Source: Rufibacter roseus
Lineage (GTDB): Bacteria; Bacteroidota; Bacteroidia; Cytophagales; Hymenobacteraceae
Direction: 5' to 3'
Length of the DNA stretch: 64,000 nucleotides
Assembly: GCF_001647285.1 (NCBI RefSeq)
Contig: NZ_LRML01000006.1
Span: 248,001-312,000, forward strand
The translations under genes and the position numbers were made by a program. The notes below the pieces were generated by a model that ran no database searches, was not told the DNA's origin, and saw only the letters and a program-made list of their open reading frames with translations. Shown piece by piece: positions 46,449 through 61,320 of this stretch. The first letter of the stretch is position 1; each line of letters opens with the position of its first letter.

Positions 46449-46483
46449 CGAATTTCAGCAGCCGGGCACCTGCCGGAAAGGAC
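46449..46483 (-). promoter_or_regulatory. Phage promoter module e
   Basis: On the minus strand GTCCTTTCCGG (46483-46473), 20 bases, TTCG (46452-46449). The start codon of the 277-residue protein is 16 bases further. It has one mismatch in the -7 part compared with the other four copies. Confidence 0.7.
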
Positions 46484-46490
46484 ACGAAAA

Positions 46491-46513
46491 AGCCCCAGCA
46501 AACTGCTGGGGCT
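46491..46513 (-). terminator. Intrinsic terminator of the T9SS cargo gene
   Basis: AGCCCCAGCA, loop AAC, TGCTGGGGCT; on the minus strand TTTTTC follows, then promoter module e. Confidence 0.9.
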
Positions 46514-46547
46514 TCTAAACTCTTAGCTAATCATTTATACAAAGACT

Positions 46548-47936
46548 TTACCTTACGATCACCCTTCGGGTATAGGTTTTGCCTTTTGTAGAAACCAAAA
46601 CACTGTAAACCCCAGGTGCCAATCCCTCTAAACTGACATGTAATTCTTTTTGCCCCCCTTTACGAGAAAGTACGGTTACCCCCAAACTATTGACCAGGGA
46701 AGCCGACTCTATGCTTTCAGTGGCTTGGATCCGCAAATTATGGGTGGCGGGGTTGGGGGATAAAATAATATTATTGGCTGCATCCTCCTCTCTAAGGCTA
46801 GTGACCGTGGAAGGTAGACCATAGCGCATCACAGTAATCCTACCCACTTCGGATTCGTCTCTAAAAGCAATATAAGGTTCCCCTGTTAAAGGATTAAGCG
46901 CTAAATAGGTAAAAATAGCCTCACCCGTTGAGAAAGCTGGAGTCCCTACAGTTTCCCAGCGGGTGCCGTTAAACCGCATAACAGAGGTTTTGCTTTGTAA
47001 GCTCTTATCGACGAAGCCTATCACTAGTTTGCCGGTAAAATCTAGGGCTAAAGAAAGGTATTGGGCCGCGCCTGCTGTGAATGCCCTTGGTCCAACGTAC
47101 TCCCAACCTGTTCCATTAAATTTCATTACCGTCGCCCTTCCATCTCTATCACCATCCGAGAAAGCAACATAGGGTACACCAGCATTCGTAATTACTAACT
47201 GCGGGTTATAGGTAAATGCACCAAAAGAACCCGGCCCCACGTTTACCCATTCAGTGCCATTGAATCTCATTACCGCCGTCCAGTTGTCAACGGAAGTCCT
47301 GCCATCCCTGAAAGCAATATATGGCGTATTTTGCGGTCCTATAACTATGTTAGGTTCAAATGCCTGCCCTGGTGAGAAAGCTTCCTTCCCCACCACTTCC
47401 CAAGACGTGCCGTTGAACTTCATGACCGAGGCTCTATATCCCAAAGTATTGTCTTGAAAGGCTATATAGGGAACTTCGTTTGAATCAAAGGCCAAGGATA
47501 TATGATTAATGGCACCGGCCGAAATTCTTTCCCCCCCTACACTAACCCAATTGGACCCATCAAACTTCATGACGGCAGCGCCGAAACGACCTCTAAAACT
47601 TACATATGGAGTGCCTGCGGGACTTAGCACTATTTTTAAGCCTAATGCCGGTCCATTCATAAACCCTCTTGTACCCACCAAGACCCAGGTACTACCGTTG
47701 AATTTCATTACCGTCGCATCGTTCGAAAGGTTAAAGTTGTCTATGAAAGCCACATAAGGCGTACCGTCCCGCCCTATAGCCATGGAAACATCTTCTCCTA
47801 TCGTACGATTCGAAAAACCCGGCTGTCCTACCACCCGCCAAGCATTGGTGGTTTGGCAAGTAGCCACATTGGGCAAGAATCCAAATTGAATTATTAAAAT
47901 AAATAACAGAATTAAATTATTTGTAGATTTCCTCAT
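46548..47936 (-). CDS. Secreted beta-propeller-like protein with T9SS C-terminal sorting domain (phage cargo/moron)
   Basis: 462 residues. Signal peptide MRKSTNNLILLFILIIQFGFLPNVATCQ. Residues ~33-380 contain about seven ~47-residue repeats with VMKFNGTxWExVG followed by TPYIAFxD, which should form a beta-propeller. The last ~75 residues (ILSPNPATHNLRIQA...GVYSVLVSTKGKTYTRRVIVR) are a Por-type sorting domain that sends proteins through the type IX system to the cell surface or outside. It is more AT-rich than the phage genes around it. It has its own -7 box (48058-48065) and terminator (46491-46513), so it is a self-contained transcription unit inside the phage late region. Ligand unknown. 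Confidence 0.85.
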   Translation of the reverse strand: MRKSTNNLILLFILIIQFGFLPNVATCQTTNAWRVVGQPGFSNRTIGEDVSMAIGRDGTPYVAFIDNFNLSNDATVMKFNGSTWVLVGTRGFMNGPALGLKIVLSPAGTPYVSFRGRFGAAVMKFDGSNWVSVGGERISAGAINHISLAFDSNEVPYIAFQDNTLGYRASVMKFNGTSWEVVGKEAFSPGQAFEPNIVIGPQNTPYIAFRDGRTSVDNWTAVMRFNGTEWVNVGPGSFGAFTYNPQLVITNAGVPYVAFSDGDRDGRATVMKFNGTGWEYVGPRAFTAGAAQYLSLALDFTGKLVIGFVDKSLQSKTSVMRFNGTRWETVGTPAFSTGEAIFTYLALNPLTGEPYIAFRDESEVGRITVMRYGLPSTVTSLREEDAANNIILSPNPATHNLRIQATESIESASLVNSLGVTVLSRKGGQKELHVSLEGLAPGVYSVLVSTKGKTYTRRVIVR

Positions 47937-48057
47937 TGAACTTATTTATTACTGACTGCTGAAATATTTGATATTTATACTTAATACTGAAAAAGCAAAT
48001 TGCTCTCCCTGAACAAAACCCTTTCATGAAAGATGCGATTTTTATTCATAACAACTT

Positions 48058-48065
48058 CAAAATTA
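48058..48065 (-). promoter_or_regulatory. Host-type -7 box of the T9SS cargo gene
   Basis: TAATTTTG on the minus strand matches TAnnTTTG, with TTTG 16 bases upstream. It predicts a leader of about 115 bases. The whole 278-bp spacer 47937-48214 is AT-rich, unlike the phage genes, and holds no other gene. Confidence 0.45.
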
Positions 48066-48214
48066 GGGAATTTCCTTTAAACAAAAACACACACCTGGTG
48101 ATTCTGTTAACTATTAAACCTTGCTGAGCTTTATTTTCCTATTAAAGATTATATGGTTGGAATGGCCTAAATTGGTTAAGCAATAGGATTTTTACTGTTT
48201 ATCTTTTTTACCTA

Positions 48215-48490
48215 TTAAATAACCTTAGAATTCCCACCCTGACCTTGGTGCTGGGAAAGACTTGTGAGAAACAACTGCAGGGCGTTCATTGCCTCATAAT
48301 CAGCCATCCAATCACCAACGTGCTCCGGATCCCTTTTTACTGCATTGAAAATTAAATTGTTCACCAGCTGGTGGAGGCTGGCCATGTCCGGAACCAAGTC
48401 CAGCAGCTGGATCAGTGCGCCCATGGTGAGATCATTCAGCTGGGGCTGGTCACGTATAATGTACGTGTTACCTTCTTTGGAGATGGCCAT
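48215..48490 (-). CDS. Small phage protein, unknown
   Basis: 91 residues, acidic and helical: MAISKEGNTYIIRDQPQLNDLTMGALIQLLDLVPDMASLHQLVNNLIF ... The size and the following gap suggest a small structural or regulatory protein. No signature. It lies between the lysis/spanin-like gene and the cargo gene, with a structured 248-base leader upstream. Confidence 0.55.
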   Translation of the reverse strand: MAISKEGNTYIIRDQPQLNDLTMGALIQLLDLVPDMASLHQLVNNLIFNAVKRDPEHVGDWMADYEAMNALQLFLTSLSQHQGQGGNSKVI

Positions 48491-48738
48491 GGTTGTTTCG
48501 GCTTTGGCACCCGTGTGCCCGTGAGAAGGAGCTGCGAAACAACATTACCTGCCATTTTGGGGGCCTTACGGTTTAAACCCCTCACTCCTCCCCACGGGCA
48601 CACGGCTATATAGAAAACTATAAGAAGCCAAACCCATGGGTGCCCCACGCCCATGACTGGAGGAATGGGGCATCCAAGGACAGGTAATAAATGTTTCGCG
48701 ATGTAAAGGTGGGGGATTGTAAGCAGAAAACAAAAAAA
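48491..48738 (-). other. Structured non-coding leader of the 91-residue gene
   Basis: It contains a 13-bp inverted repeat, CCGTGTGCCCGTG (48511-48523) and CACGGGCACACGG (48593-48605). It also shares ACCGTAAGGCCCC with the spacer of promoter module c. On the minus strand TTTG...CACCTTTA near 48695-48733 is a possible weak promoter. No gene is seen. Confidence 0.4.
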
Positions 48739-48772
48739 ACAGAAGGCCCTCAAATTATAGAGGGCCTTCTGT
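48739..48772. terminator. Bidirectional hairpin terminator
   Basis: ACAGAAGGCCCTC, loop of 8, GAGGGCCTTCTGT with A-run on the left and T-run on the right. It closes the gene that ends at 48775. Confidence 0.9.
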
Positions 48773-48774
48773 TT

Positions 48775-49410
48775 TTAGTTAAGGAGATAAGCCGCGGTAG
48801 TTGCCCCGGCAGCAAAGCCGAGGCCGAGCCAAAGCCCGGTGCGTTTTCGCGGCACTTCCACGGCAAAACTCTGGACATCCAGAACTGTGGAGTTGGGATT
48901 TAGATTCTTGATCTTGACCTCCAGCCGGTCAGGCGTGAAAAAGCCCGTACGGGTATTGACCTGAAAAATCTCCAGCTCGTTCCGGACTCGGTAATCCAAT
49001 GTGGGTGTGTTGCCTGCGAGGTTCAGCTGCGCCTGGATCCATTCATCATTGAAGGCGTAAGAAGTCACCGGCGTGGAGTCTCCCGGTTCCAGATCAGGCG
49101 GTGTGGGCTTCACTGTGCCGGCAGTCTCCATGGCCAGATACGTGGCTGACCGGGTTCGCTTGCCTTCCCGCTTAACGGCTTCACCAAGTTTACTGTCCTG
49201 CTTGGCCACCACCTTTACGGTGGTTTCCTGGGCAGCCCTGGTTGCAGTCTCCTGCCCTTGGGCATTCGCATCCCATTTAATGGGCCCGTACTGCGCCACA
49301 ATATTGGTCTCCGCCTGGCTGGAGCTTCTCGGGGAATGCACCAAGCCTCCCAGAACGAAGGCAAAGGTGAACAACAGCACCCCTGCCGCAATCAAAAAGT
49401 AGTTTTTCAT
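48775..49410 (-). CDS. Phage envelope protein with hydrophobic segments at both ends (possible spanin-like)
   Basis: 211 residues. MKNYFLIAAGVLLFTFAFVLGGLV is an N-terminal membrane helix. A Gln/Lys/Thr-rich helical stretch follows, then a beta-rich part (~115-185), and GLWLGLGFAAGATTAAYLL is a second hydrophobic segment at the very end. Directly after the lysis genes, and with anchors at both ends, it could span the periplasm like a unimolecular spanin. That is a guess from layout; no family is recognised. It is driven by promoter module d. Confidence 0.5.
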   Translation of the reverse strand: MKNYFLIAAGVLLFTFAFVLGGLVHSPRSSSQAETNIVAQYGPIKWDANAQGQETATRAAQETTVKVVAKQDSKLGEAVKREGKRTRSATYLAMETAGTVKPTPPDLEPGDSTPVTSYAFNDEWIQAQLNLAGNTPTLDYRVRNELEIFQVNTRTGFFTPDRLEVKIKNLNPNSTVLDVQSFAVEVPRKRTGLWLGLGFAAGATTAAYLLN

Positions 49411-49444
49411 AAAATGGTTTTAAGGGTTTAGAATTTACAAAGGC

Positions 49445-49479
49445 CAAAGGTTCTTACCGAGTACCTTTCCGGAAAGGAC
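49445..49479 (-). promoter_or_regulatory. Phage promoter module d
   Basis: On the minus strand GTCCTTTCCGG (49479-49469), 20 bases, TTTG (49448-49445). Here the upstream element extends to a 14-bp perfect palindrome, CCTTTCCGGAAAGG. The start codon at 49410 is 34 bases further. Confidence 0.8.
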
Positions 49480-49487
49480 AATAAAAA

Positions 49488-50024
49488 TCAATCTTTAATC
49501 CAGCTGGCCACACGGTTGATGGTCCGCCTCGGCCGGCGCTTCCGGTACACGCCGTCACCCTCCCTGGAACCCGCCTCATTGGTGTTTCCCTCCACGGTGA
49601 TCACGCTGGAGCCTGACCACTTCTCCACAAATCCGACGTGGCCAATGCGCTTCAGGTTGGAGAACCAGATGCCGAAGACGTCTCCTGCCCGTGGCCCAGC
49701 CCGAGATTCTTTTCCGGAGCTGTACACAAGCCTTGAGGCCGGAAACCATGAAGGAGCCCATGCCGCCCCTTTTGGGGTTGTGTACCCGCACTCTTTCAGT
49801 ACCCAGTTCACAAAGGCACCGCACCAGGCATGGCCTTTCCCGAGACCGGTGGACCGGAGGTACATTTCAACGGCGGCACCGTCATTTTTACCGGTCGCCT
49901 CCCTTACGCCCAGCTGGCTCCGGAAGACGGCGGCTACGCCATCCCGGCTACGGCCATGAACGTCAGCACCACTGAAATTAAGTAGAGTGCAAAGACTGAG
50001 AAGCAGAAAAATACTTTTGCGCAT
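49488..50024 (-). CDS. Phage endolysin, CHAP/TIGR02594-type amidase with N-terminal signal or SAR helix
   Basis: 178 residues. MRKSIFLLLSLCTLLNFSGA is a signal peptide or signal-anchor-release helix, so export may use the host Sec route instead of only a holin. The catalytic domain shows the papain-like triad: Cys68 in GHAWCGAFVNWVLKECG, His129 in GHVGFVEK, and VEGNTN (~144-149). It should cleave a peptide or amide bond in peptidoglycan. Its start lies 91 bases inside the upstream membrane-protein gene. Confidence 0.85.
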   Translation of the reverse strand: MRKSIFLLLSLCTLLNFSGADVHGRSRDGVAAVFRSQLGVREATGKNDGAAVEMYLRSTGLGKGHAWCGAFVNWVLKECGYTTPKGAAWAPSWFPASRLVYSSGKESRAGPRAGDVFGIWFSNLKRIGHVGFVEKWSGSSVITVEGNTNEAGSREGDGVYRKRRPRRTINRVASWIKD

Positions 50025-50299
50025 GGGGTCATTCGGTTAAAGTTTCTCACAAACTGCCGCTGGAAAAAATACCAGACGGCATGGAAATTCAGTTTAATCC
50101 CAACCCAGACAAACAGGTGCAGCGCACCGAAAGCCAAGGTTGTGATGTAGATCGGGTGAAGCACCCCCGCGTCAAACGGTGCGGCTGTAGGGTCTAAAAT
50201 TCTGAGCACAATGGGCACAAATGGCCACAGAACCATGGATAAAAGAACAAGGCTTACCTCATTCCAGCGTCTTAGAAAAGAGAAAATTGGGTTTAGCAT
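49934..50299 (-). CDS. Phage membrane protein, holin-like
   Basis: 121 residues from MLNPIFSFLRRWNEV; the open frame runs on upstream to 50476 but that part is unlike a protein start and overlaps the next membrane gene. Three to four hydrophobic helices are visible (~17-33, ~50-70 and ~95-118). It ends 91 bases inside the endolysin gene. It is a candidate holin or lysis-cassette membrane protein; the 75-residue gene next to it is a second candidate. Confidence 0.6.
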   Translation of the reverse strand: MLNPIFSFLRRWNEVSLVLLSMVLWPFVPIVLRILDPTAAPFDAGVLHPIYITTLAFGALHLFVWVGIKLNFHAVWYFFQRQFVRNFNRMTPCAKVFFCFSVFALYLISVVLTFMAVAGMA

Positions 50300-50316
50300 A
50301 TAAAGGGAAAATTGGT

Positions 50317-50544
50317 TTACGAAGTGGGTGGTTTGTACTTCAGCTTCCTCTCCAGCCAATTGAAGCCGAGTTTGAGAAGGTAGGTGATAATGAAGCCGGC
50401 ACCGGCACCGATGGCACCGCAGACGGCAGTCTGGATAAGGGTCTCCGTCTTCAGGAAACCGAAAAGCATCGCGCACATAGGGCTGAGCACGCTGCCCAGG
50501 ACCCCACCGTTCATGGGGTTTAAATCAAAATGGAAATTCGCCAT
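50317..50544 (-). CDS. Small phage holin-like membrane protein
   Basis: 75 residues: a short polar N-terminus, two hydrophobic helices (~14-30 and ~36-60) and a basic C-terminus (LERKLKYKPPTS), a class II holin-like layout. It precedes the second membrane protein and the endolysin, which is the usual lysis-cassette order. Confidence 0.6.
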   Translation of the reverse strand: MANFHFDLNPMNGGVLGSVLSPMCAMLFGFLKTETLIQTAVCGAIGAGAGFIITYLLKLGFNWLERKLKYKPPTS

Positions 50545-50580
50545 GGTACCAGGCTTAAAGGGTTTAGTATAGATTGGGTT

Positions 50581-51567
50581 TTAAAATGCTCTGAAGGTGC
50601 GAGCTCCGGACTGGTTGCGCACGTGGCGGTCAGCTGGAGGCGGGGTGTACTGGCTGCTGTTGAAGTAAGCCGCGTATTTCGTCTCTGAGGCCTCGCGGTC
50701 AAGGTACTTGCGCATTTCCTCCAGGTAGAACTTGCCTTCGCGTTTGGCCTTAGCGCTCCGGCTGAGCAAATTCTGATCATCAGTCTCTGCAGGTTTTCTC
50801 TTCCGGCATATTTTCAAACCCTCGGCAGTGAGATTGAAATCCAGACTGACCATGGCCATGGCGGCGGCAAGGTTTGCCTGAGCGGGCCGGAGGTAGAGCT
50901 GCACGAGTTTCCCGTTCTCCAGGGACAGTTCACCTGACTTAATCTGGGTGTGCAGTTCCTCTGCCAGATCATGGCCCAGCTGACGGTCTATCACCATGCG
51001 CTGCGCGTTCCGCATGTATGGCAGTAAATGGTAAAGAGTCAGCCAACTCTCCTCAATAGGGAATTCCTGAGAGAATTCTGAAGCAGAAAGAATGTAAAGG
51101 TCCTTGAAAGCATCCAGGAACTTTGACTCTGACCATTTAGCCAGCAGCTGATCACCTGAATGTTTCACCAGGTACTTCAGCACTTTCTCCAGTGCGGCAA
51201 AACCCTTGGCAGTAAAGCTTTCTTTGAGCTGCTCTATTTGCCACGGGAAAGCAGTCTTTGTAGTGGAGTCGCTGTTGATCAGCACGCCGGCATCCGAAAT
51301 GGAAACTTGGTTGACCGCCAGATAACTCTCCATGGCTAGGTTGGCAACTGCCAGCTGCAGGTGCCCAACCAACCCGGAAACAACTTGTTCCAATGTGCCG
51401 GCTTCGTATTTCTCAAGCAGCTCGGAATGGAAAGGCTCCCCCAGAAATTTCCTGATCTCTGAATCCTCCACCAGCAGGACATCACCCATCAGTGGTTCCA
51501 GGGAGAAGCCGGTGGCCACAGGCACGCAAGCCTCAAATTCCTCTATAGTTTTAAATAAGGCTTTCAT
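50581..51567 (-). CDS. Phage protein, DUF6712-like
   Basis: 328 residues, helical and acidic: MKALFKTIEEFEACVPVATGFSLEPLMGDVLLVEDSEIRKFLG. I recall this layout as the DUF6712 family that travels with portal genes in Bacteroidetes phages; the name is from memory. It starts 9 bases after the portal stop. It is a likely head or connector protein, unproven. The end has a Pro/Arg-rich tail. Confidence 0.55.
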   Translation of the reverse strand: MKALFKTIEEFEACVPVATGFSLEPLMGDVLLVEDSEIRKFLGEPFHSELLEKYEAGTLEQVVSGLVGHLQLAVANLAMESYLAVNQVSISDAGVLINSDSTTKTAFPWQIEQLKESFTAKGFAALEKVLKYLVKHSGDQLLAKWSESKFLDAFKDLYILSASEFSQEFPIEESWLTLYHLLPYMRNAQRMVIDRQLGHDLAEELHTQIKSGELSLENGKLVQLYLRPAQANLAAAMAMVSLDFNLTAEGLKICRKRKPAETDDQNLLSRSAKAKREGKFYLEEMRKYLDREASETKYAAYFNSSQYTPPPADRHVRNQSGARTFRAF

Positions 51568-51576
51568 ATTAGATTT

Positions 51577-52932
51577 TTAGGCGGTTTCCTGTTGCACGCT
51601 TTTCCCTTTGTCAAGCGTCATGATGAGCGGGTTAAGGATCCGGAACTCAATGTTCGGGTCCCAGCCATTGTAGTCACGCACGGTATAGAGCGGCTCCAGT
51701 ACAAGGTCCTGCTGGAATTTGGAGCTGGAGATAAAGTTGTTGAAATGCACGCGGGCATCGGATCCGGAGCCGGCTCCCATGCTCTTGCCCGGGGTTATGC
51801 CCATGAGCACCGGTGCCAGGCCAATGGCCGTCAAGATGTGGCTCGAAGCCTCCTGGGAATCTTCCACGTAGATTCCTGATTGCAACTTGTCATCCACGGC
51901 CTCCACTTTGTAGGCAGAAATGGTCTCACCTGAGTCAAGGGTAATGGTAGTGGCCAAAATTGACTTGCCAGCCCCCTCGTTTCCGGACATGATTTCATCA
52001 AACTCATCCAGCTCGGCAGTAATGATCTGCGTGCGCTGCGCGTCTGACTTCTCCTCCCAGTCTTTGTATTTCCAGGACCAGTAGGCTGAGTGCACCGACA
52101 CGATGTATTTAATCGTCAGCTGGTTTTTGAACAGCGCCTTCTTAAACTCAGGAATAGCCTGGGCCACCTCCAGCCAACCTGAGCGGCGCACACTGTTCCA
52201 GGAGGCGAGCTGGTAGGCGCACTTGTCCGGAGACGGGATGCTGATTGGGTAGATGAATTTGTTGTCAGTGGTATTCTCCCGCATCTGCTCCACCGGGTCA
52301 TCGTATGGATCCAGGACCGGGACTTTAGGCACATTGTCAACCGACTCCCCCTGGTCCCAGTTGGCGTTGATGTACACGTGGCTGAAAACACCGGTTTTAG
52401 GATCAGCCTTTGAGTAGCGGCAAAAAGTGGCCTCCTGTGAGGTGAGCCTGGCAATCTGACTGCGGTCATTGGAGAGCACAAACTCAGGAAAGGTGTTCAC
52501 AAACCAGGAAAGGTCCAGAAAAGACTCAAAGCCGTAGCGCGGGATGTTGCTCTTCCGGAAAAACTCCTCAATCTCCGGGTCCTTTTTGCGTTTGAATATT
52601 CCGTTACCCTGGTCATCATACTCAGTCACCTTGCCGTACACGATGCCTCCGCCGTACCAGAGCTCCGCACGGCGCTGCAGAGCGGTGGGAATAATGGTGT
52701 TCTTTTCAGCCTCCTCCCGCACTTTCTGCGGAAACAGGTTATCCTCCCCCCACTTTTCCACCATTCCGCTGCCGTCGGCTTTCTTCACCGGAATTGTAGG
52801 CACGCCCTCCGGACCGGAGCTTTTTCCCTTGGTACCGGAGCCGGCAAGCGACAAAGCACCCGGCGTCCTGAAGGCGTGGGAAGACCGGGAAGCGAAAAAC
52901 ATGGTACCAGTACTGTTGGCTACAACCGTCAT
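51577..52932 (-). CDS. Phage portal protein
   Basis: 451 residues. The start is flexible and Gly/Ser-rich, then comes the portal-type core VPTIPVKKADGSGMVEKWGEDNLFPQ, RRAELWYGGGIVYGK, FIYPISIPSPDKCAYQLASWNSVRRSGWLEVAQAIPEFKKA. Near the C-terminus is the polar GLAPVLMGITPGKSMGAGSGSDAR loop followed by the long helical stem. Portals form the 12-mer DNA gate of the head. It overlaps the next upstream gene by one base. Confidence 0.8.
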   Translation of the reverse strand: MTVVANSTGTMFFASRSSHAFRTPGALSLAGSGTKGKSSGPEGVPTIPVKKADGSGMVEKWGEDNLFPQKVREEAEKNTIIPTALQRRAELWYGGGIVYGKVTEYDDQGNGIFKRKKDPEIEEFFRKSNIPRYGFESFLDLSWFVNTFPEFVLSNDRSQIARLTSQEATFCRYSKADPKTGVFSHVYINANWDQGESVDNVPKVPVLDPYDDPVEQMRENTTDNKFIYPISIPSPDKCAYQLASWNSVRRSGWLEVAQAIPEFKKALFKNQLTIKYIVSVHSAYWSWKYKDWEEKSDAQRTQIITAELDEFDEIMSGNEGAGKSILATTITLDSGETISAYKVEAVDDKLQSGIYVEDSQEASSHILTAIGLAPVLMGITPGKSMGAGSGSDARVHFNNFISSSKFQQDLVLEPLYTVRDYNGWDPNIEFRILNPLIMTLDKGKSVQQETA

Positions 52933-53276
52933 TAGATTATTACTTTAAGGCCGTTGAACTCGGTGATCAGGAAGAGGTGCACGGTGCGGGTCTGTCCGTT
53001 CTGTTTGATGATGTTGCGCGTGGCGTTGGCGAAGTGGTTGGGGTTCTTCTTCAACTTGCCTGTCTCGGCGGGCGCAGCGGGAATATTTTCCACCTTTTCT
53101 GCGGAATATTTTTTTCCTTTTCTGCCGACGCTGGTCATCGTGACACTGGTGCGGACTTTCCGGATACCACCGGTCTGTTTTTTGTCGTCAGCCGTGAAAT
53201 GCACCAGGTCAAAAGGCTCCCCTCCCTCCATAATTTCCAGCGCGTCGGCCAGCCGTATGATTCCCTTTCCTGTCAT
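52932..53276 (-). CDS. Small basic phage protein, unknown
   Basis: 114 residues, Lys/Thr-rich, one base of overlap with the portal start. MTGKGIIRLADALEIMEGGEPFDLVHFTADDKKQTGG ... NHFANATRNIIKQNGQTRTVHLFLITEFNGLKVII. It is the first gene behind promoter module c. The -7 element is only 7 bases from its ATG. Confidence 0.6.
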   Translation of the reverse strand: MTGKGIIRLADALEIMEGGEPFDLVHFTADDKKQTGGIRKVRTSVTMTSVGRKGKKYSAEKVENIPAAPAETGKLKKNPNHFANATRNIIKQNGQTRTVHLFLITEFNGLKVII

Positions 53277-53283
53277 AGTGGCC

Positions 53284-53318
53284 CAAAGTTGGGGCCTTAC
53301 GGTACCGCCGGAAAGGAC
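53284..53318 (-). promoter_or_regulatory. Phage promoter module c
   Basis: On the minus strand GTCCTTTCCGG (53318-53308), 20 bases, TTTG (53287-53284), then the ATG after 7 bases. Confidence 0.8.
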
Positions 53319-53637: not shown

Positions 53638-55314
53638 CTAACGGGACACGATCACCAGGTCAGAGAAGTTACCACCCCTTCTGATCACGTGCTTGTCTAT
53701 GCTCACCAGGTGCAGATCAACTGTATCCGTATAGTGGGTAGCTTCCTGGGCAGGAGTACTAGCCCTGCCCTCACTGCTCTTGTCTTTGGCGATCTGCCCG
53801 TCGCGCCCTTCCTTCACCGGTGCCATGGTAAGCGCGGTTAGCACATCCTTGCAGTGTACCTTATTGAATCTAACCTTAGGCAGGCGCGGGTTCTTCTCTG
53901 AGAACATCTCATGTGCCAGATGATAGCGTGCCTGGTGCCTAGGCATACGGCCCAGCTCCACCTTCACCACGGTCCAGCCACGCTTCTTCAGACACTCCAT
54001 AAACTGCTGATTATAGCTGAGCTTGGAGTCCGCTCGCCTGTGGTCACCATGTTCTTTGTCCGGAAGGAAGAAGACTTTCTTGTTAAGGTGATAGGCGTAG
54101 TAGTCACAGAACAGATCAGCTAAATCACTGATCAGCTTAGGGTGCTTCACATAGAAGCCCTTCAGGAAGCGGTACTCAGGGTCCAAATGCTGGGCCACGG
54201 TGAGGGAAGATATCTTGGCTCCCCAGTCAACACCCAACCTAAGGGGCTGGGTGCTTACACAGTCACCGTCCATGCGGCTATCCTGTGAGGAGATCTTTTC
54301 AAAATTGTAATTAAGCCCCTCCAGATAAGCGTCATTCTCATACTGGTTATAGGCATGGCGCTTCAGGTCCAGCGTCGGATAGAAACCTGCCTCCACTTTA
54401 CCTGGGCGCTGGTTCAGTACCTCAGTAAGGAAGACGTATTCAGTAAGCGACTCCCGCTGCTGTTCAAGATACCCTATTCCAAGGTTCTTCAGGTTCTCAA
54501 AGGCATTGGCCTCTGAATAAAACAGCCCCGGTTTCGGCTTGCCGGTTTTTTCATCGGTTTTCCTTTCCGCGTAAAAAGTAAGTTCCTTACTGATGCGGTT
54601 GATGTCAATCCACAGCTTACTCCGGAACTCATGGTCCTTGTTATCAATGAACTTCAGCTGCAGCTCAATCAGCTCGTTCTGCAGGGAGACAAAATCATAG
54701 TTGTCCTTCAGGTAATATGCCCCACCCTTCAGTAGCCAATGGCTGGCGTCGTACGGCATGGAGCTGAAGTGGAACTCGCCGTGGTGAAGCGGTATTTTAC
54801 GGAAATAGCGTCTATTGCCGCGTTTGGTAGGGAAAACCTCCCTATCATACTGGTCTTTGTTGATCAGAAGCGACTCATCTGCGATAATGCCGTCAAAGTT
54901 ACCACCTCGGGCACTCGTTGCCCCTCCGTCCTGGCTCACCAGCTGGAAAACGACTCCCTCTTTCCAGAAATAGATACAGTGGTCGTATTTCAGAGGCGGC
55001 TCATAGGGCTCGATGCCTTTCCATGTCTTGGGGGGTCTGCGGCCGACAAAATAGTGCACGTCCTTATAAAGACCGAGCCTGGCCAATGCGCCAATGGTAC
55101 TGGGCAGGGTAACGGTAAGCAACTGCTGGAAAGTGGATCCTAAAATGATCCATTTGCTCCTGGGCATGAGTTTGATGATCATCAGAATCAGCCATGAGAT
55201 AATAGAGGACTTGCCGGTCGCACGTCCCCAGAGGGAAATGGCGGCGGCAAACCTGGTCACCACAAAACGGAGCTGCGCCCTGTTGAAATCCAGCTTTTTA
55301 GGCTTCTCATTCAT
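53638..55314 (-). CDS. Phage terminase large subunit
   Basis: 558 residues from MNEKPKKLDFNRAQ at 55314. Walker A-like GRATGKS (30-36), Walker B FDGIIADES (~140-148), and a nuclease domain with LGVDWGAKIS (Asp363), PDKEHGD and HYTDTVDLHLV as acidic ligands. It cuts and pumps phage DNA into the head. Its start codon overlaps the preceding stop by 8 bases (ATGAATGA pattern). A further in-frame upstream start exists at 55356, but it would overlap the small subunit gene more. Confidence 0.9.
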   Translation of the reverse strand: MNEKPKKLDFNRAQLRFVVTRFAAAISLWGRATGKSSIISWLILMIIKLMPRSKWIILGSTFQQLLTVTLPSTIGALARLGLYKDVHYFVGRRPPKTWKGIEPYEPPLKYDHCIYFWKEGVVFQLVSQDGGATSARGGNFDGIIADESLLINKDQYDREVFPTKRGNRRYFRKIPLHHGEFHFSSMPYDASHWLLKGGAYYLKDNYDFVSLQNELIELQLKFIDNKDHEFRSKLWIDINRISKELTFYAERKTDEKTGKPKPGLFYSEANAFENLKNLGIGYLEQQRESLTEYVFLTEVLNQRPGKVEAGFYPTLDLKRHAYNQYENDAYLEGLNYNFEKISSQDSRMDGDCVSTQPLRLGVDWGAKISSLTVAQHLDPEYRFLKGFYVKHPKLISDLADLFCDYYAYHLNKKVFFLPDKEHGDHRRADSKLSYNQQFMECLKKRGWTVVKVELGRMPRHQARYHLAHEMFSEKNPRLPKVRFNKVHCKDVLTALTMAPVKEGRDGQIAKDKSSEGRASTPAQEATHYTDTVDLHLVSIDKHVIRRGGNFSDLVIVSR

Positions 55315-55948
55315 CGGAATCACCCTCCTCAGGCTCCTCAAACTCCCAGCTGTCACCGTAGCCGAGCTGCTGCACGGAATTCACGACTTCCTCGTACTCG
55401 GCATCCTGGATGTTGTCCAGATTAACAGTTTTGGCAACCCCGGAAGAAGTCATCAGCTGCATCACGTACGTGTGCGCCTCCATGAGCTCTGCGTCATAGC
55501 CATTTACGTCGTTCTGGTCGAGTCCCTTGAGCATTGCCATGTTCTTGATAGCCCTGTTCATCGCAGCCAGGTCAGGCGGTCGCTGGGTGGCGGCCAGCTG
55601 GAAAACTTTCATGGAGTACTCGTACAGGATGTGGCGCAGGCCTTGCTTGCTCACCTGAGTCACGTCGCCGAAAAGCTGGGTGCACTGGTTAAGCACCCTG
55701 TAGGCCGTGGCACGGCTGAACTTGAACCTAGAGACAAGGAGCGGTACTGCCTGCTCAAAGGAATGGTACTGCACCAAAAGCCCCCATGCGGCCTCCAGCT
55801 GATCGCGCAGCTCTTTGTCTTTATCTGACAGTTTCTCCTCGCCATCCTCCTCCAGATAGGAAAAGTAAATACGGTCAATGCGCGTGTCACCCTTAGCTTT
55901 CGGGATTAGCGAATCTTCCAAGTTCTTCCAAAGAGAGTTCTTCTCCAT
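55307..55948 (-). CDS. Putative terminase small subunit
   Basis: 213 residues from MEKNSLWKNLEDSLIP at 55948, a start 56 bases inside the methyltransferase end. The N-terminal region is acidic. FKFSRATAYRVLNQCTQLFGDVTQVSKQGLRHILYEYS looks like a DNA-binding helix-turn-helix followed by an oligomerisation helix, and the C-terminus is acidic. Place before the large terminase and size fit a small subunit. Identity is by position more than sequence. Confidence 0.65.
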   Translation of the reverse strand: MEKNSLWKNLEDSLIPKAKGDTRIDRIYFSYLEEDGEEKLSDKDKELRDQLEAAWGLLVQYHSFEQAVPLLVSRFKFSRATAYRVLNQCTQLFGDVTQVSKQGLRHILYEYSMKVFQLAATQRPPDLAAMNRAIKNMAMLKGLDQNDVNGYDAELMEAHTYVMQLMTSSGVAKTVNLDNIQDAEYEEVVNSVQQLGYGDSWEFEEPEEGDSDE

Positions 55949-57164
55949 TTCTAAAAATTTTAAAGGGTAGGTTGTTTTCCTGCATGTATTTGGCGTAGCG
56001 GCGCACATGCACGTCAATGAAGCGCGGATCCAACTCCTGAGCATAGCACTGGCGCTGCAACTGCTCGCAGGAGATGAGTAGAGAACCGGAGCCGCCGAAG
56101 CCGTCGAAAACGATGTCGCGGCGCTGGGTGCTCTGCTCGAGGAGGTAGCTGATCAGCTGCACCGGCTTCATGGTCGGGTGCTCATCGTTGCGGGTGGGGC
56201 GGTCAAACTCCAGCACGGTGGTCTGCCTGCGGTCAGAATACCATTTGTGAGCTGCGCCCTCTTTCCAGCCGTACAGAACCGGCTCATGCTTCCAGTGGAA
56301 GTCCTGCCGGCCCATCACCATGGAGTTCTTCACCCACACGAGGCACTGGCTCAGCTTCAGCCCTGCGTCTTTCAGCGCCTGCCTGAAGTTGGCCCCTTCT
56401 GAGTCGGCATGGAACACGTAGATGGGGGCACCAGCTTCCATGATCATGAAGCAATTAGTATAGAAGTCGTAGAGAAACTGGTAGAAGGAGGCATTGTCCA
56501 TGCTGTCGTTCTCAATTTTGAGCGACTCCTTCGTTTTGCCCTGGTAGTCCACGTTGTAAGGCGGGTCGGTATTCACGCAGGCGGCAAGCTTGCCGTCCAT
56601 GAGTTTGGCTATGGCGTCGCTGTCAGTGCTGGAGGCACAATGCAACCGGTGCACCAGGCGTTTGCTCGGGCTGTGAAACTCATACAGATCACCAAGAACC
56701 GAAATAGGCTCGCGGGGCAGCACCGGCTCGAAATCAGACTCCTGCTCCGGGTTCAGCTCTTTCATGAGCGAGTCCGGCATTTTGAAGTCTTCCACGTTAA
56801 GGCCCAAAGAGAGCAGGTCAATGTCGGCAAAGACCTCCTCCAATACATCAGTGGCCCAGTGGCCGATCTGCACGTTGGAGCGCACGTTGTATTCCTTCAG
56901 CTCTAGCTCGGTGAGTTTTCGGTTGGGGTAACGCACGTCAATCAGCTCCTGACCACGCTCCAGGTCAAAGAGCACCTTCAGGCGCTGGTGTCCGGCAATC
57001 ACCACGTTGTCAAAATCAATCACCGGTATTTCCACCAGGTTGAACTTGCCGATGGAATCTGTCAGGATCTTACGCCGCTCCTCAGTCAGAATGCGGGGGT
57101 TGTACTCATAGGGGATCAGGTCAGCGACGCGTCGCTGCACCGTGATCCAGTTCAAATCAGTCAT
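55893..57164 (-). CDS. ParB/Srx-domain DNA methyltransferase (N6-adenine or N4-cytosine, beta-type order)
   Basis: 423 residues. Residues ~10-110 are a ParB N-terminal-like domain (DLIPYEYNPRILTEERRKILTDSIGKFN ... VIAGHQRLKVL). The C-terminal methyltransferase has motif IV DPPY (200-203), HPTMKPVQL (330-338) and motif I DGFGGSGS (355-362), giving the beta order. No restriction endonuclease is near, so it is an orphan, likely for protection from host restriction or for packaging control. It lies unusually in the late operon, 8 bases inside the 199-residue gene and overlapping the small terminase. Confidence 0.92.
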   Translation of the reverse strand: MTDLNWITVQRRVADLIPYEYNPRILTEERRKILTDSIGKFNLVEIPVIDFDNVVIAGHQRLKVLFDLERGQELIDVRYPNRKLTELELKEYNVRSNVQIGHWATDVLEEVFADIDLLSLGLNVEDFKMPDSLMKELNPEQESDFEPVLPREPISVLGDLYEFHSPSKRLVHRLHCASSTDSDAIAKLMDGKLAACVNTDPPYNVDYQGKTKESLKIENDSMDNASFYQFLYDFYTNCFMIMEAGAPIYVFHADSEGANFRQALKDAGLKLSQCLVWVKNSMVMGRQDFHWKHEPVLYGWKEGAAHKWYSDRRQTTVLEFDRPTRNDEHPTMKPVQLISYLLEQSTQRRDIVFDGFGGSGSLLISCEQLQRQCYAQELDPRFIDVHVRRYAKYMQENNLPFKIFRNGEELSLEELGRFANPES

Positions 57165-57756
57165 TTTGGGTTTGTTGTAAAAGTTGCGAAACAGTGTTTA
57201 TCTTCTCCTGGAGCGCCGGCAGCTCTGCTTGACGCTTCGGGTTTTTCTTGAGTTTGGCGCGAAGGCAGCGCATGTTGGTCAGCTCCTTGATGAGTTTGGC
57301 CTCGGACATGCCAGTGAAATCAGTGGGTGGCTCCACAGGTTTCTCCTGTTTGAAATAAATGGCTGAGATTTGCTTAGTGAGTGCCAAAATGCGGAGGCAG
57401 GCGGCCTCACACTCCTTCGGGCCCATACGCTCCAGCTGGGCGTGCAGCATGGTGCGCTCATCCAGGAGCGGCCGGAGCCTGCCGTTCTCCTCGGGGTGAG
57501 GCTGCTTCTGGTTTTTTTCTGCTTTTGGGCTGTTTTCAGAAAAAGTGCCTACAACCGGGGCGGGTTTAGCTATAGCTGAATTTTCCTGCAGCAGCTGCTC
57601 CAGTGCTTTAAAAAGCCGGTCCCGTGTGAATGCCATCTCCCCTTTCCGGAAAAGGTCCTTCAGGGCCTGATTGGAACCCAAATGCTCATACAGCTGAACA
57701 CCTTCTTTGTAGGTGCCCTTTTTCTCCAGCCAATTTTTGATGCTCCCGATTTCCAT
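57157..57756 (-). CDS. Phage helical protein, unknown
   Basis: 199 residues from MEIGSIKNWLEKKGTYKEG at 57756. The frame runs upstream to 57861 but that crosses a terminator and promoter module b, so this start is preferred. Helical, with MGPKECEAACLRILALTKQISAIYF and a Lys-rich end. It heads the methyltransferase/terminase operon. Function unknown. The -7 element is only 5 bases from the ATG, so the mRNA may be leaderless. Confidence 0.6.
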   Translation of the reverse strand: MEIGSIKNWLEKKGTYKEGVQLYEHLGSNQALKDLFRKGEMAFTRDRLFKALEQLLQENSAIAKPAPVVGTFSENSPKAEKNQKQPHPEENGRLRPLLDERTMLHAQLERMGPKECEAACLRILALTKQISAIYFKQEKPVEPPTDFTGMSEAKLIKELTNMRCLRAKLKKNPKRQAELPALQEKINTVSQLLQQTQND

Positions 57757-57761
57757 GGGTG

Positions 57762-57796
57762 CAAAGGTTAGACCGGCAATTGCCACCGGAAAGGAC
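57762..57796 (-). promoter_or_regulatory. Phage promoter module b
   Basis: On the minus strand GTCCTTTCCGG (57796-57786), 20 bases, TTTG (57765-57762). The bases before TTTG are TAACC, close to TAnn. The ATG follows after 5 bases. Confidence 0.8.
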
Positions 57797-57801
57797 GTAA
57801 A

Positions 57802-57829
57802 AAAGCCCCTGCCATTTGGCGGGGGCTTT
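57802..57829 (-). terminator. Intrinsic terminator upstream of promoter module b
   Basis: AAAGCCCCTGCC, loop ATTT, GGCGGGGGCTTT: a 12-bp stem with one G-U pair, then TTTT on the minus strand. It ends the capsid transcript. The bases 57830-57909 to the next stop codon hold nothing obvious. Confidence 0.9.
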
Positions 57830-57909
57830 AGTAGGGATGGTAAACAAAACGCGTAAAACACTTACACGCCTGGCCCAAGACACGGCAATTACCGGTTAAG
57901 GCCAGACTA

Positions 57910-58500
57910 TTATGGGGCTACCGGTTCTTCAGCAGGCGCCTCTACGGCCGGAACGGCTGGAAGTATAGTCTGGTCAAACAACTTCACCTCTCCCTCATAG
58001 AAATGCAGGCCGGTGGTGAAATACTCACACTTGAATGTCCAGCCACGGCGTCCGCCTGACTGCTTACCGGATGAATAGCTACCGGTAATTTCAACACCTC
58101 TGCCTGGGCCGCCGAGTTGCAGTCTGTTACCTTCAACAGTTTCCACAAGCATGATGCAGGACAGATTTTTAACTCTGCGTGCGAATACAGCGCCTTCTTT
58201 CTCCGATCCTGGGTAAAAGAACTCAAGGGTACCTTTCTGTCCACGACCGTCGCGCTCACCCACTGCCTCCAGTTTCAATTCCTCGGAGTCCGGGGTCATG
58301 TAGACAGGGTGAAAGCCTTTTGTCGCTTCAAAAGCATGGGCTCCGTCAATGGTCACCTCATCCGTGGCGACCGCTGACCGGCTTTTCGGCCCTTTTAGAC
58401 CTGCAGGAGCGAAATACGACATTGGGGCCACAAAACCCAGTTGTCTAAGACCGCCGTCGTTGTCTTCGCCGCTAGGCCCGTTTAAATCTAGTAAATCCAT
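57910..58500 (-). CDS. Phage structural protein, possible tail tube or decoration protein
   Basis: 196 residues, beta-rich, Gly-rich: GFVAPMSYFAPAGLKGPKS near the start and ITGSYSSGKQSGGRRGWTFKCEYFTTGLHFYEGEVKLF near the end; the C-terminus is Ala/Glu/Pro-rich. The pattern reminds me of tail-tube proteins of Bacteroidetes phages; no other tube candidate is obvious in the window. Inference from composition and place in the capsid block. Confidence 0.45.
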   Translation of the reverse strand: MDLLDLNGPSGEDNDGGLRQLGFVAPMSYFAPAGLKGPKSRSAVATDEVTIDGAHAFEATKGFHPVYMTPDSEELKLEAVGERDGRGQKGTLEFFYPGSEKEGAVFARRVKNLSCIMLVETVEGNRLQLGGPGRGVEITGSYSSGKQSGGRRGWTFKCEYFTTGLHFYEGEVKLFDQTILPAVPAVEAPAEEPVAP

Positions 58501-58519
58501 TATTCTGGTCTCCTTTCAG

Positions 58520-58852
58520 TTAAGCGTTTGACTCTTCTTCCGTGGCCTCGATCTTCTGGAGAAGACCTGACTTAATTTTAATCAGATGCTGGATAAGCTC
58601 TTTGCTCTCGGCAACCTCGGCAGCGGTGTACACTTTGCCTTTGATATTGGCTTTTGCAGCAAGCAAACGGTACTGCTCATCTTCAAAGCTCACCACAGGC
58701 AATGAGCTGCCCTTGGCTGCCTCTGCATTCTTGAGCGCCTGCACGGTTTCATCCAGAATAGCGTCTTTATCCGCCAGCTGTTGTCTAAGCCGTGCTATCT
58801 CCTGCTCCGGGGTTAGCTGCTCCTGTTCCGGAGCTTTATTTTCTTTTGACAC
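58520..58852 (-). CDS. Small phage structural protein with coiled coil, unknown
   Basis: 110 residues, strongly charged: MSKENKAPEQEQLTPEQEIARLRQQLADKDAILDETVQALKNAEA is a coiled coil. A short VSFEDEQYRLLAAKANIKGKVYTAAEVAES follows. It lies just after the capsid protein gene, so a head accessory role is likely. No family recognised. Confidence 0.5.
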   Translation of the reverse strand: MSKENKAPEQEQLTPEQEIARLRQQLADKDAILDETVQALKNAEAAKGSSLPVVSFEDEQYRLLAAKANIKGKVYTAAEVAESKELIQHLIKIKSGLLQKIEATEEESNA

Positions 58853-58901
58853 TGTTATGGTCTCCTTATTTTAGTTTAACAAATTGAAAGGTGGACCTGC
58901 C

Positions 58902-59852
58902 TTACAGCAGATCCACGTCGTTGGTGAAAACGATCTCAGGTACCAGGATACCCACCCCAGACCACCAGTCGGTGAAGAGCTTCACCAGACGGTCAACCGC
59001 CTGTATGTTCATGGCCTTCATGTTCTGGGTTTTCTTGCCCAGCTTCAGCACGTTGTTCTTAGGCGTTGCCCAGATCTTATCAGAACCGTCCATGGAAGGA
59101 AGGCCGATCACGGTCAGGTTGGCGTATTTCACCTTACCACCAAGCTCTTTGTGGTTGGTGTCTTTGCCATACTTCTCATCACAACCTCTGTAGTAGTTGC
59201 GCTCAATGGTCTCATTCACGCACAGCTGCATCGGTATTTTCCAGTAGGCTTTGTTTATCTGGTCAGAGAAGGCCTCTATGTAATCAACCAGAGCCAAAGG
59301 ATCGGTAGGAACAGCACCCAAAACAATCGGATCAATGCGACCGGCCGTAACCTGGTCGTTGATCGCTTTGCGCAGACCGTTCATGGAAGTACCGGCAGGA
59401 CCTGCCACACCATTGGTAGGCGCGGCATACACTCCGTGGTACACCTCAAACATTTCGTAATCCTCCTTTGCCTGAGGCAAAAGGTGAATCTCTACAAACC
59501 ATTTGATGAATGGCCATTCCTCACGCTTGATGCCGTCGCCGGCAAGGAAACCAAGCCAAGTGCCTTCCAGATCATCTGGATATTCCTGGGTGTCGATTTT
59601 CATTTTGAACTGCTCAATGGCGATGGCCACGAAAGTCAGATCATTGATCGGGGTCCAAGCTTTCTGGAAAGGCTGGAGCACGCGACCCATCTTGCTTTGG
59701 GAGGCGCGGTAAATGGTATCATCCGTGAAGAACGGAGTGAGCACGGTGTCCGTGGTAGACGGACGGTGCAACAGCTGGAGCAACCTTGCGGTGTTCTGGC
59801 CTGAATTGAGGTAATAAGCCCCAAACTCGGTGATGATGTCTGCGATATTCAT
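58902..59852 (-). CDS. Phage major capsid protein
   Basis: 316 residues: MNIADIITEFGAYYLNSGQNTARLLQLL ... FTDDTIYRASQSKMGRVLQPFQKAWTPIND ... VNETIERNYYRGCDEKYGKD ... VPEIVFTNDVDLL. The call rests on size, high expression-type codon use and position right after the capsid protease and scaffold; the sequence itself does not show a short family signature. The HK97 fold is expected but not demonstrable by eye. Confidence 0.75.
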   Translation of the reverse strand: MNIADIITEFGAYYLNSGQNTARLLQLLHRPSTTDTVLTPFFTDDTIYRASQSKMGRVLQPFQKAWTPINDLTFVAIAIEQFKMKIDTQEYPDDLEGTWLGFLAGDGIKREEWPFIKWFVEIHLLPQAKEDYEMFEVYHGVYAAPTNGVAGPAGTSMNGLRKAINDQVTAGRIDPIVLGAVPTDPLALVDYIEAFSDQINKAYWKIPMQLCVNETIERNYYRGCDEKYGKDTNHKELGGKVKYANLTVIGLPSMDGSDKIWATPKNNVLKLGKKTQNMKAMNIQAVDRLVKLFTDWWSGVGILVPEIVFTNDVDLL

Positions 59853-59917
59853 TTTGGCAGCTTTAGGTAGATAAAGGGTTGTGTAGGTAAGTAGCTAGTA
59901 AACTGGGCAACCCGCCC

Positions 59918-60316
59918 TTATTTGTTGAAGAGCGGGTTGTTGGCGATGGCTTTATTGTGCGGCAAATCAGCCATGATCTTGGCGTTCTCATCACCGGCGG
60001 CAGGCTCAGGCGTCTCGCCATTAGCCTTGCTAGGGGTAGTGGAGGCTTCTGAAGGCTTCTTCTCCAGCTTCGCGATTTTGTCATTGGCCTGCTCCAGCTG
60101 CTGGGTCAGCTTCGCCTCATTTTCAACTGAGGCCTGGAAGGCGTCGTGCTGCTCAACGGTGATCAGGGCAGCGCCCTCGATACCGGCTGCCTCCAGCTCG
60201 TCGTTGGCGGCGTCTAACATTTCAGCGGTGAGCTCCTCGCCTTTTTTGCCGGCAAGGGCAGCAACGGAAGCGAAGGCCGTAGCCGCCGCAACTGGTTTTT
60301 TTGAGAAAATTCCCAT
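59918..60316 (-). CDS. Possible nested scaffold protein (in-frame internal start)
   Basis: An in-frame ATG at 60316 starts MGIFSKKPVAAATAFASVAALAG, right after the Asn-rich linker, giving 132 residues equal to the scaffold part of the protease gene. The DNA just upstream is AT-rich, as favoured by Bacteroidetes ribosomes. It parallels the lambda C/Nu3 arrangement. Not proven. Confidence 0.4.
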   Translation of the reverse strand: MGIFSKKPVAAATAFASVAALAGKKGEELTAEMLDAANDELEAAGIEGAALITVEQHDAFQASVENEAKLTQQLEQANDKIAKLEKKPSEASTTPSKANGETPEPAAGDENAKIMADLPHNKAIANNPLFNK

Positions 60317-61258
60317 GCTATTATTTGAATTAGGATTGTTTGTGGATTTGGGGTTGCCGGTCTCGGCTCTGGCCAGCTCGGCGGCACGCTGCACGGCGTA
60401 CTCAAAAGAGCCCAGCTCATCGGCTAGGCCACAGTCAACGATCGTTTGTCCGATATAGACTTTGCCAGTCAGCACGTTCTCTTCCTTCAGGTCCAGTTTT
60501 TCGCCTCTGTTGTCTTTAACCGAGGAAGTAAAAGCCGCATTCAGAGGATCCAGTTGCTGCTTTTGCATCAGCTCGTATTTGCCCTGAAGCGCCTGCAGGT
60601 AAGGCTCGTTCTTGTCTTTGGAATCGGTGGCACGAATGGTATGGCTCTTGATGCCGATCTTCTCATACCATCCGGAGAAGTCTGTGATGGTGCACATGGT
60701 ACCTATGCTCCCCACCATGGCCGTCTTTCCGGCCGCAACGATCAGGTTGGCCCCAGATCCGGACCAGTAGCCGGCAGAGCACATCTGCTCAGCGTAAGAC
60801 ACAAGCGGTTTCTTTGTATCGGTGATGATTCCGGAGAAACGCTCGGTTCCTGACACAGTGCCGCCAGGGGTTTTCCAGTGGACCAGGTGCGCCGCAATGT
60901 TCTCATGGTCATCGGCCTCCTGTATCAAGACACCTATTGTGGCGGTACCGGGCGCACCGCAGTAGTCCTCGGTCATCATTGGGCCATCCACTGTGTGAAT
61001 GGCGATAGAGCCGGTCGGGGCCTCATCGTAGCTGGAGAAAGAAGAAGTGAAAACGCGATCAGAGCTGGAGAGTGCGCCTATGACAGCTACCGCCCTTACA
61101 AGTGGCTTCTCTTCTTTTTTCTCTGATTCTGAGTCTTCCTTGGCAGTGGTGGAATTCTCCATCATCTGCAGCACTAAAGGCAGATAAGCCTCAGCTGCCA
61201 AAGGATCAATTGCCCAAGGCTCGCGGAGTACTGCAGAATAAACGGGGTTCAAGCGCAT
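59918..61258 (-). CDS. Phage capsid maturation protease (S49/SppA-like) with C-terminal scaffold domain
   Basis: 446 residues. The S49 domain (~50-300) shows HTVDGPMMTEDY, WKTPGGTVSG (the SppA-type PGG loop), YAEQMCSAGYWSGSGANLIVAAG with Ser161 as likely nucleophile, MVGSIGTMC and GKVYIGQTIVDCGLADELG. An Asn-rich linker (~303-313) then leads into a helical, Gln/Glu/Lys-rich domain (~340-446) like a scaffold. Such proteins cut capsid and scaffold during head maturation. The general-base Lys cannot be placed with certainty. It is the first gene behind promoter module a. Confidence 0.85.
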   Translation of the reverse strand: MRLNPVYSAVLREPWAIDPLAAEAYLPLVLQMMENSTTAKEDSESEKKEEKPLVRAVAVIGALSSSDRVFTSSFSSYDEAPTGSIAIHTVDGPMMTEDYCGAPGTATIGVLIQEADDHENIAAHLVHWKTPGGTVSGTERFSGIITDTKKPLVSYAEQMCSAGYWSGSGANLIVAAGKTAMVGSIGTMCTITDFSGWYEKIGIKSHTIRATDSKDKNEPYLQALQGKYELMQKQQLDPLNAAFTSSVKDNRGEKLDLKEENVLTGKVYIGQTIVDCGLADELGSFEYAVQRAAELARAETGNPKSTNNPNSNNSMGIFSKKPVAAATAFASVAALAGKKGEELTAEMLDAANDELEAAGIEGAALITVEQHDAFQASVENEAKLTQQLEQANDKIAKLEKKPSEASTTPSKANGETPEPAAGDENAKIMADLPHNKAIANNPLFNK

Positions 61259-61285
61259 CTTTAATACCTGTAGTTAGGTTCGATG

Positions 61286-61320
61286 CAAAGGTGGCGGTGG
61301 GCTGAGCCGCCGGAAAGGAC
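61286..61320 (-). promoter_or_regulatory. Phage promoter module a
   Basis: On the minus strand GTCCTTTCCGG (61320-61310), 20 bases, TTTG (61289-61286). The protease ATG is at 61258, 27 bases further. Confidence 0.8.

Follow-up and report, generated by a model that had tools for sequence, protein, structure and literature searches.

A recurring box before the late operons of a Rufibacter roseus prophage and its relatives, and a small phage protein that probably reads it

The stretch of DNA analysed here, called the window, comprises 64,000 nucleotides of the Rufibacter roseus contig NZ_LRML01000006.1 (C36 below) and includes part of a prophage in which an 11-base element, GTCCTTTCCGG, stands five times on the minus strand, followed each time after 20 bases by TTTG or, once, TTCG. 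In our judgement these modules are very probably late promoters, and a phage-encoded factor is in all likelihood needed at them. That factor is probably a 183-amino-acid (aa) protein, here called ACT, whose gene lies just outside the window; our reading as a whole, which comparison of sequences makes probable too, is that host RNA polymerase uses these promoters, that a phage box covers their -33 position, and that ACT activates them and regulates its own gene. Related phages share both the signal and this uncatalogued small protein, which probably reads it.

The five modules had been pointed out in an initial annotation of the window, and their coordinates, sequences and 20-base spacing proved exact, with TTTG in four and TTCG in the one at 46449. 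That observation is right, yet understated. When the window was scanned with up to three mismatches, 10 matches were obtained against 3.17 expected, a number reached by none of 100 shuffles, and the matches with zero mismatches were the five modules only. With no more than one mismatch allowed, GTCCTTTCCGG-N20-TTYG occurs at six places in the whole genome of 5,117,794 bases, all on one strand and in one prophage; the many equally good chromosomal matches that would have spoken against a phage signal did not appear. The sixth place, GTCCTTTCCGA-N20-TTTG at C36:312970-313004, lies 970 bases past the window end on the same strand as the five and is counted here as late promoter 1. The bare 11-mer has six copies genome-wide, i.e., the window's five and one on contig C1. 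A degenerate seventh site, GTCCTTTCTAG-N20-TTTC with TAAATTTC as its -7 element, is found upstream of ACT (C36:313149-313700, minus strand), at C36:313722-313756, with 21 bases between it and the ATG, and ACT in turn ends 144 bases before late promoter 1. This closeness is not general, the first late box found in relatives often being 3-8 kb past ACT. The identical element next to divergent spacers fits the earlier proposal of selection on two elements. The 11 bases described as never varying are indeed constant among the window's five, but across relatives only the first seven, GTCCTTT (hereafter the box or core), hold, while the next four drift. Since these four vary, the exact 11-mer is a local form of this phage, and an invariant 11-base unit was rejected.

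The modules precede gene blocks, as first reported, and their placement before late operons was confirmed. Late promoter 2 (61286-61320, minus strand; GTCCTTTCCGG, N20, TTTG) stands before the gene at 59918-61258, with a predicted fold of -15.8 kcal/mol and a run of six T directly upstream. Late promoter 3 (57762-57796, minus strand; fold -19.3, six T upstream) precedes 57157-57756 and the ParB-methyltransferase and terminase genes; an ATG follows after five more bases, and the transcript would be near-leaderless if its start site lies as in Flavobacterium johnsoniae. At late promoter 4 (53284-53318, minus strand; fold -15.6, six T upstream), the ATG follows after seven more bases, and the genes behind it are 52932-53276, the portal and the CHAP endolysin. 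Late promoter 5 (49445-49479, minus strand) has five T and a weak fold (-8.0) upstream and leaves 34 nucleotides (nt) from TTTG to the ATG of 48775-49410, and late promoter 6 (46449-46483, minus strand; TTCG, fold -21.7, five T) leaves 16 nt to the ATG at 46432 and precedes 45599-46432, the tail genes and the tape measure gene. Thus a hairpin and T run resembling an intrinsic terminator abut the box at four of the five window modules, a feature absent from the initial annotation.

The strandedness and spacing of the element persist in related phages. Across 24 regions oriented by ACT (the prophage itself, 21 loci from whole genomes and two viral contigs), the pattern GTCCTTT-N21-A-N2-TTTG, sought with the A fixed and no more than one mismatch elsewhere, occurs 96 times on ACT's strand and once on the other. 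A wider set of 44 regions (1.28 Mb), from which L069-L071 were excluded as duplicates of G195, G065 and G047 and in which one region (G021) was chosen by its portal gene, yields 98 exact core-N24-TTTG sites on ACT's strand and none on the other, the core being GTCCTTT or its variants GTCTTTT and GTCCTAT; with other gaps, from 16 to 32, the counts fall to 0-4 on ACT's strand and 0-3 on the other. When the 6-mers upstream of sites resembling A-N2-TTTG were counted without bias and the top six listed per region, the box 6-mer came first, with offset and strand the same, in 22 of 47 regions (duplicates accounting for two of the 22), tied for first in G062 and G151 and came second in G371; the remaining 22 regions mostly hold fewer than three sites.

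With one mismatch in TTTG allowed, the wider set gives 157 sites on ACT's strand, of which 141 have an A at -11; these were divided into 17 within 160 bases before ACT and 124 called late. By F. johnsoniae numbering, the box occupies positions -39 to -33. According to PMC6847099, T-12, A-11, T-8, T-7, T-6 and G-5 are nearly invariant in F. johnsoniae promoters, G is virtually absent from -10 and -9, and transcripts mostly carry leaders (87% over 10 nt). Similar to Bacteroidota sigma-A promoters (TTTG / TANNTTTG), our sites have a -7 TTTG with A-11, correctly spaced from a TTT at -33, which fits the -7 core and the -33 distance of the first description. In contrast to those promoters, T-12 is mostly lost, G-10 is common and a fixed extra GTCC lies upstream, so the full -7 element TANNTTTG is not what the late sites present: A-11 occurs in 141 of 157 sites, whereas T-12 occurs in 11 of 124 late sites as opposed to 14 of the 17 sites before ACT (Fisher p 3e-10, on related and hence not independent sequences). 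G-10 is found in 44 of the 124, and G at -9 in 8 of the 17 sites before ACT, likewise unlike F. johnsoniae. The base after the TTT at -33 is T in 83 late sites, C in 32, G in 7 and A in 2, the host -33 element being TTTG. From the T-12 and G-10 counts, the late sites look like poor host promoters supplied with a phage box, and the promoter of ACT like a better host promoter with the same box. As a control on host DNA, T-12 occurs in 12 of 23 N-A-NN-TTTG matches in 27 gene-upstream regions versus 53 of 192 over all of that DNA, which is weak but concordant.

Within the 14 bases that precede the box, 81 of the 124 late sites have a run of at least four T, and 69 of the 124 also fold at -8 kcal/mol or better, a combination seen at 2.1% of 2,480 positions taken at random. 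Since 58% of random positions pass on the fold alone, it is the T run that carries the signal; because such a terminator-like structure abuts the box in 69 of the 124 late sites, many late blocks resemble transcription units of their own. Where such a fold is lacking, in 30 late sites, the T run persists in 12, and it may play a promoter role of its own, for instance as an UP element. The first ATG begins exactly four bases past TTTG in 33 of the 124 late sites, which would have mRNAs beginning at their AUG if transcription starts five bases after G-5; at random positions, an ATG three to eight bases on is met in 7.7% of cases. An ATG three to seven bases past TTTG (49 of the 124 late sites; in the window, at 57762 and 53284) would give leaderless or near-leaderless mRNAs.

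The candidate activator gene is ACT. Homologs of it occur in 42 of 200 Hymenobacteraceae genomes (the family genomes below), our own counted, and across the phylum in 5 of 395 genomes, counting our own and one more of the family; one Fulvivirga metagenome-assembled genome (MAG), one Pricia MAG and two viral contigs carry it as well. Four or more core sites on the same strand are present in 25 of the 42 ACT-positive family genomes versus 1 of the 158 ACT-negative ones (Fisher p 1.3e-19, the genomes being related and so not independent), and the sole exception, G005, has its four sites spread over three contigs, and a profile search does find an ACT in it. Since our loci were mostly chosen for ACT, its presence in 33 of 35 regions of the gene-content table is circular, and genomes chosen by portal were used instead. 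Two rows of that table, p45599 and p55307, had a wrong reading frame and are disregarded. The portal, an independent marker of the phage lineage, has matches in 45 of the 200 family genomes. Counted per genome, with matches below 35% identity left aside, 38 genomes are portal-positive; ACT is found in 36 of them by homology search and in G021 by profile. The remaining one, G055, has a broken portal fragment and was set aside; it has a GTCTTTT site and no ACT in the 20 kb examined. As a hold-out, four prophages picked by portal that initially lacked a nearby ACT hit (G021, G109:C44, G111:C16 and G121:C1:2.49M) all carry ACT by profile (E 8e-25 to 4e-28), the ACT at the portal locus of G111, of G121 and of one of the two G109 prophages having come from the profile search only. 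Each of these four loci has a box just upstream of ACT and two late boxes downstream (for G021, the second one in L098).

The box variants largely follow the ACT tree, on which they need three changes where two is the minimum. GTCTTTT, used by three phages, marks one ACT clade with support 99, and seven of the eight GTCCTAT phages group together with weak support. The base at -32 also tends to track ACT clades, with C in G000, G022, G009a and G014a and T in most others; over 29 rows it requires five changes on the tree as opposed to a shuffled mean of 8.6 and minimum of 6. L069-L071, G021, G192 (read in the wrong frame), G027 (whose ACT is broken) and G125 (needlessly) were omitted from this tree, and its long branches make the deep joins unsure. 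The suspicion that a phage late activator may have its site in the bases beyond the host consensus fits the confinement, placement, fixed spacing and single strand of the element and the presence of a candidate activator gene with a roughly concordant tree.

Under our preferred reading, host RNA polymerase would recognise a reduced -7 element, in which A-11 and TTTG are kept and T-12 is usually lost, while GTCCTTT, the phage box located around -39 to -33, would take the place of the host -33 element and serve as the activator's site. The activator would most likely be ACT, encoded just upstream of the first late promoter. The promoter of ACT, which combines the same box with a fuller -7 element, could allow a basal start followed by feedback of ACT on itself, after which ACT would turn on the late operons in parallel. 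At the promoter ACT may either replace the contact of sigma region 4, as T4 MotA does, or touch the polymerase beside sigma region 4.

It is unlikely that host sigma-A, or another host factor, reads the box alone as a strong variant of the -33 element while ACT does something else. The TTT of the box at the -33 position and the host-like -7 TTTG would be explained by such a reading, but the full element is missing from the rest of the host genome, core sets are missing from 157 of the 158 ACT-negative genomes, GTCC reaches beyond the host element, and the GTCTTTT phages form one ACT clade. The late sites, moreover, look unfit for sigma-A alone because T-12 is mostly lost and G-10, avoided by F. 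johnsoniae promoters, is frequent. Somewhat less probable still is that another phage regulator, such as a co-inherited early protein, reads the box. Early genes, which our comparison covered in part, do co-occur with these phages, the replication protein encoded upstream of ACT being found in 36 of the 200 genomes and 26 of the 38 portal-positive ones. Nevertheless, ACT is present in 37 of those 38, the 38th being the broken fragment of G055, and the box precedes ACT itself in 17 loci, one of which (G048) is doubtful. Seven genomes have the replication protein without an initial ACT hit (G002, G003, G005, G013, G050, G055 and G196); six of them show at most two core sites per strand, and the seventh is G005, with its four sites and its ACT by profile.

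A 7-bp box at -39 to -33 without dimer symmetry, held at a fixed 24-base gap from TTTG, would also suit paired sigma domains, i.e., ACT as a sigma factor or sigma-region-4 mimic with its own specificity for GTCCTTT / AnnTTTG. We consider this quite improbable; hidden Markov model searches find no sigma domain in ACT (none for regions 2 or 4 among its matches in Pfam, PHROGs and NCBIfam), and the -7 part stays near that of the host, which makes continued use of host sigma region 2 probable. That the repeats are packaging, recombination or terminator-linked elements and not promoters at all is hardly credible. Many boxes do abut a terminator-like structure, but 55 of the 124 late sites lack one, the spacing to a -7-like TTTG is fixed, only one strand is used, and an ATG lies four bases past TTTG in 33 of the 124.

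Several results weigh against activation of these sites by ACT. The short core is not specific genome-wide by itself, as it has eight exact matches in our own genome, five in the prophage and three outside it, compared with six for the reversed pattern, and the 157 sites obtained with one TTTG mismatch at gap 24 come with 19 on the other strand. No inverted repeat that could be the site of a dimer is visible in the box by eye. Seventeen of the 42 ACT-positive genomes lack a set of four sites, although in some of these the variant is GTCCTAT or GTCTTTT, to which that pattern is blind, and seven of the eight GTCCTAT-group regions show only one or two sites. GTCCTAT does not form one clade, G371 lying elsewhere on a long branch, and G014a, G009a and G048 mix variants, with a minority of others. 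Most loci were picked by ACT homology, which places ACT there by construction, and since most loci have ACT together with the structural module, with the replication gene common too, co-occurrence alone does not single out ACT. In addition, ACT has no recognisable DNA-binding domain by Pfam, NCBIfam, PHROGs or a PDB sequence search, and its frame is interrupted by stops in three loci (G014a, at G014:C1:2534529; G199:C341; and G027:C16:370109-370626). The loci with an interrupted ACT still have late boxes downstream and are perhaps inactive prophages or assembly errors.

Searches with ACT place it in no catalogued family. For 17 members, Pfam returned seven families at E 0.006-0.06, none of them in more than two of the 17 and none convincing, and PHROGs and NCBIfam likewise gave no convincing match. 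A tblastn search with this phage's ACT, and not with more distant ones, found no match in 50,697 phage records, and viral-contig searches by terminase and by a three-sequence ACT alignment found no relatives. An ACT alignment of 17 rows proved too diverse to back-translate into a pattern.

PMC4461284 describes the late promoters of phage Mu as dispersed, with non-consensus core elements, and as all dependent on activator C, whose site lies upstream of or over -35. The C/Mor system resembles ours in having several dispersed late promoters with non-consensus cores under one phage protein (here the candidate ACT); in contrast, our box is short and asymmetric, and the host uses a Bacteroidota sigma factor. 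In T4 middle promoters, as PMC2988021 sets out, a phage box stands in for the upstream sigma element and the host -10 element is retained, with the MotA box centred at -30. The layout of core-N24-TTTG with the host -7 element kept is alike, though that element is incomplete here; unlike in our late genes, whose -7 is degraded at T-12, the genes concerned in the T4 description are middle genes that need an excellent -10. No AsiA-like partner is known here, and no search aimed at one was made. The Mor/C family was not among the Pfam matches of 17 ACT homologs at E 0.1, and no Mor chain appeared in the PDB sequence search; MotA was not among the ACT matches in Pfam or in the PDB sequence search. 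Both libraries hold Mor and MotA. Our searches of open-licence PMC papers brought up no account of either a late-gene activator or a late-promoter code in temperate phages of Bacteroidota. If our reading is true, the element together with ACT offers a way to find such prophages and predict their late operons, a handle on the takeover of polymerase in a phylum with an unusual sigma factor, and inducible promoters for Bacteroidota.

G009 and G014 (L107:10411-18602 and L108) each carry another ACT, with 69-76% identity over 136-182 aa to those of the full prophages in the same genomes. The elements concerned, G009b and G014b, are roughly 11-14 kb long and hold an integrase, a repressor-like gene, a 1173-aa DnaG/Toprim primase and ACT, and G009b has a P22_AR_N gene too; integrase and primase were assigned by Pfam in G009b, and in G014b the lengths and opening residues of the genes indicate the same order. 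No structural genes were recognised in either element, there is no portal match at either place, and the chromosomal neighbours differ from those of the full prophages. The ACT of G009b has the box in its own promoter, and G014b has GTCCTTC at the same place. PMC8628076 states that Delta of satellite P4 is homologous to Ogr of P2, that both are late-gene activators, and that P4 has an integrase and a primase. Both elements share that P4-like content (integrase, primase, late activator, no structural genes) and may be P4-type satellites or decayed prophages. The likeness to Ogr and Delta is one small late activator with a homolog on an element with integrase and primase, here the candidate satellites; the Ogr/Delta family (PF04606, named in PMC8628076) was not among ACT's Pfam matches at E 0.1. 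More tentatively than anything in our preferred reading, we suggest that ACT might be the founder of a new activator family that re-aims the Bacteroidota RNA polymerase by putting a phage box in place of its -33 contact, a MotA-like but separate invention; that it might govern a late regulon common to temperate phages of several Bacteroidota families; and that P4-like satellites might carry an ACT of their own to switch on helper late genes. If the candidates are truly satellites, the P4/Delta principle would extend to a new phylum.

The prophage itself, of about 42.2 kb, is bounded by 41-bp exact direct repeats, of which the left attachment core lies at 37618-37658 and its counterpart, outside the window, at C36:327749-327789; a helix-turn-helix repressor-like gene and a tyrosine integrase (L008:1253-2662) are located toward its far end. 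Behind the five window sites are genes, all on the minus strand, for the S49 head maturation protease (59918-61258, the first gene behind late promoter 2; phrog_53 at E 7e-49 and Peptidase_S49), the ParB-methyltransferase, the terminase large subunit (53638-55356; phrog_2, E 2.9e-8), the portal protein (51577-52932; a weak match to phrog_11226, E 4e-6), a CHAP-domain endolysin (49488-50024; library domain matches), tail proteins and the tail tape measure protein (38103-41105; phrog_27166, E 1e-49). The gene at 55893-57164 (minus strand), amid the packaging genes, encodes a fusion of a ParB-like domain with an N6-N4 methyltransferase and has matches in 10 of the 35 related regions compared. Between two late promoters, in a stretch of low GC, lies 46548-47936 (minus strand), which encodes a probably secreted protein of 462 aa with a C-terminal segment that we take to resemble a type IX secretion sorting domain, and which is likely a cargo gene of the prophage.

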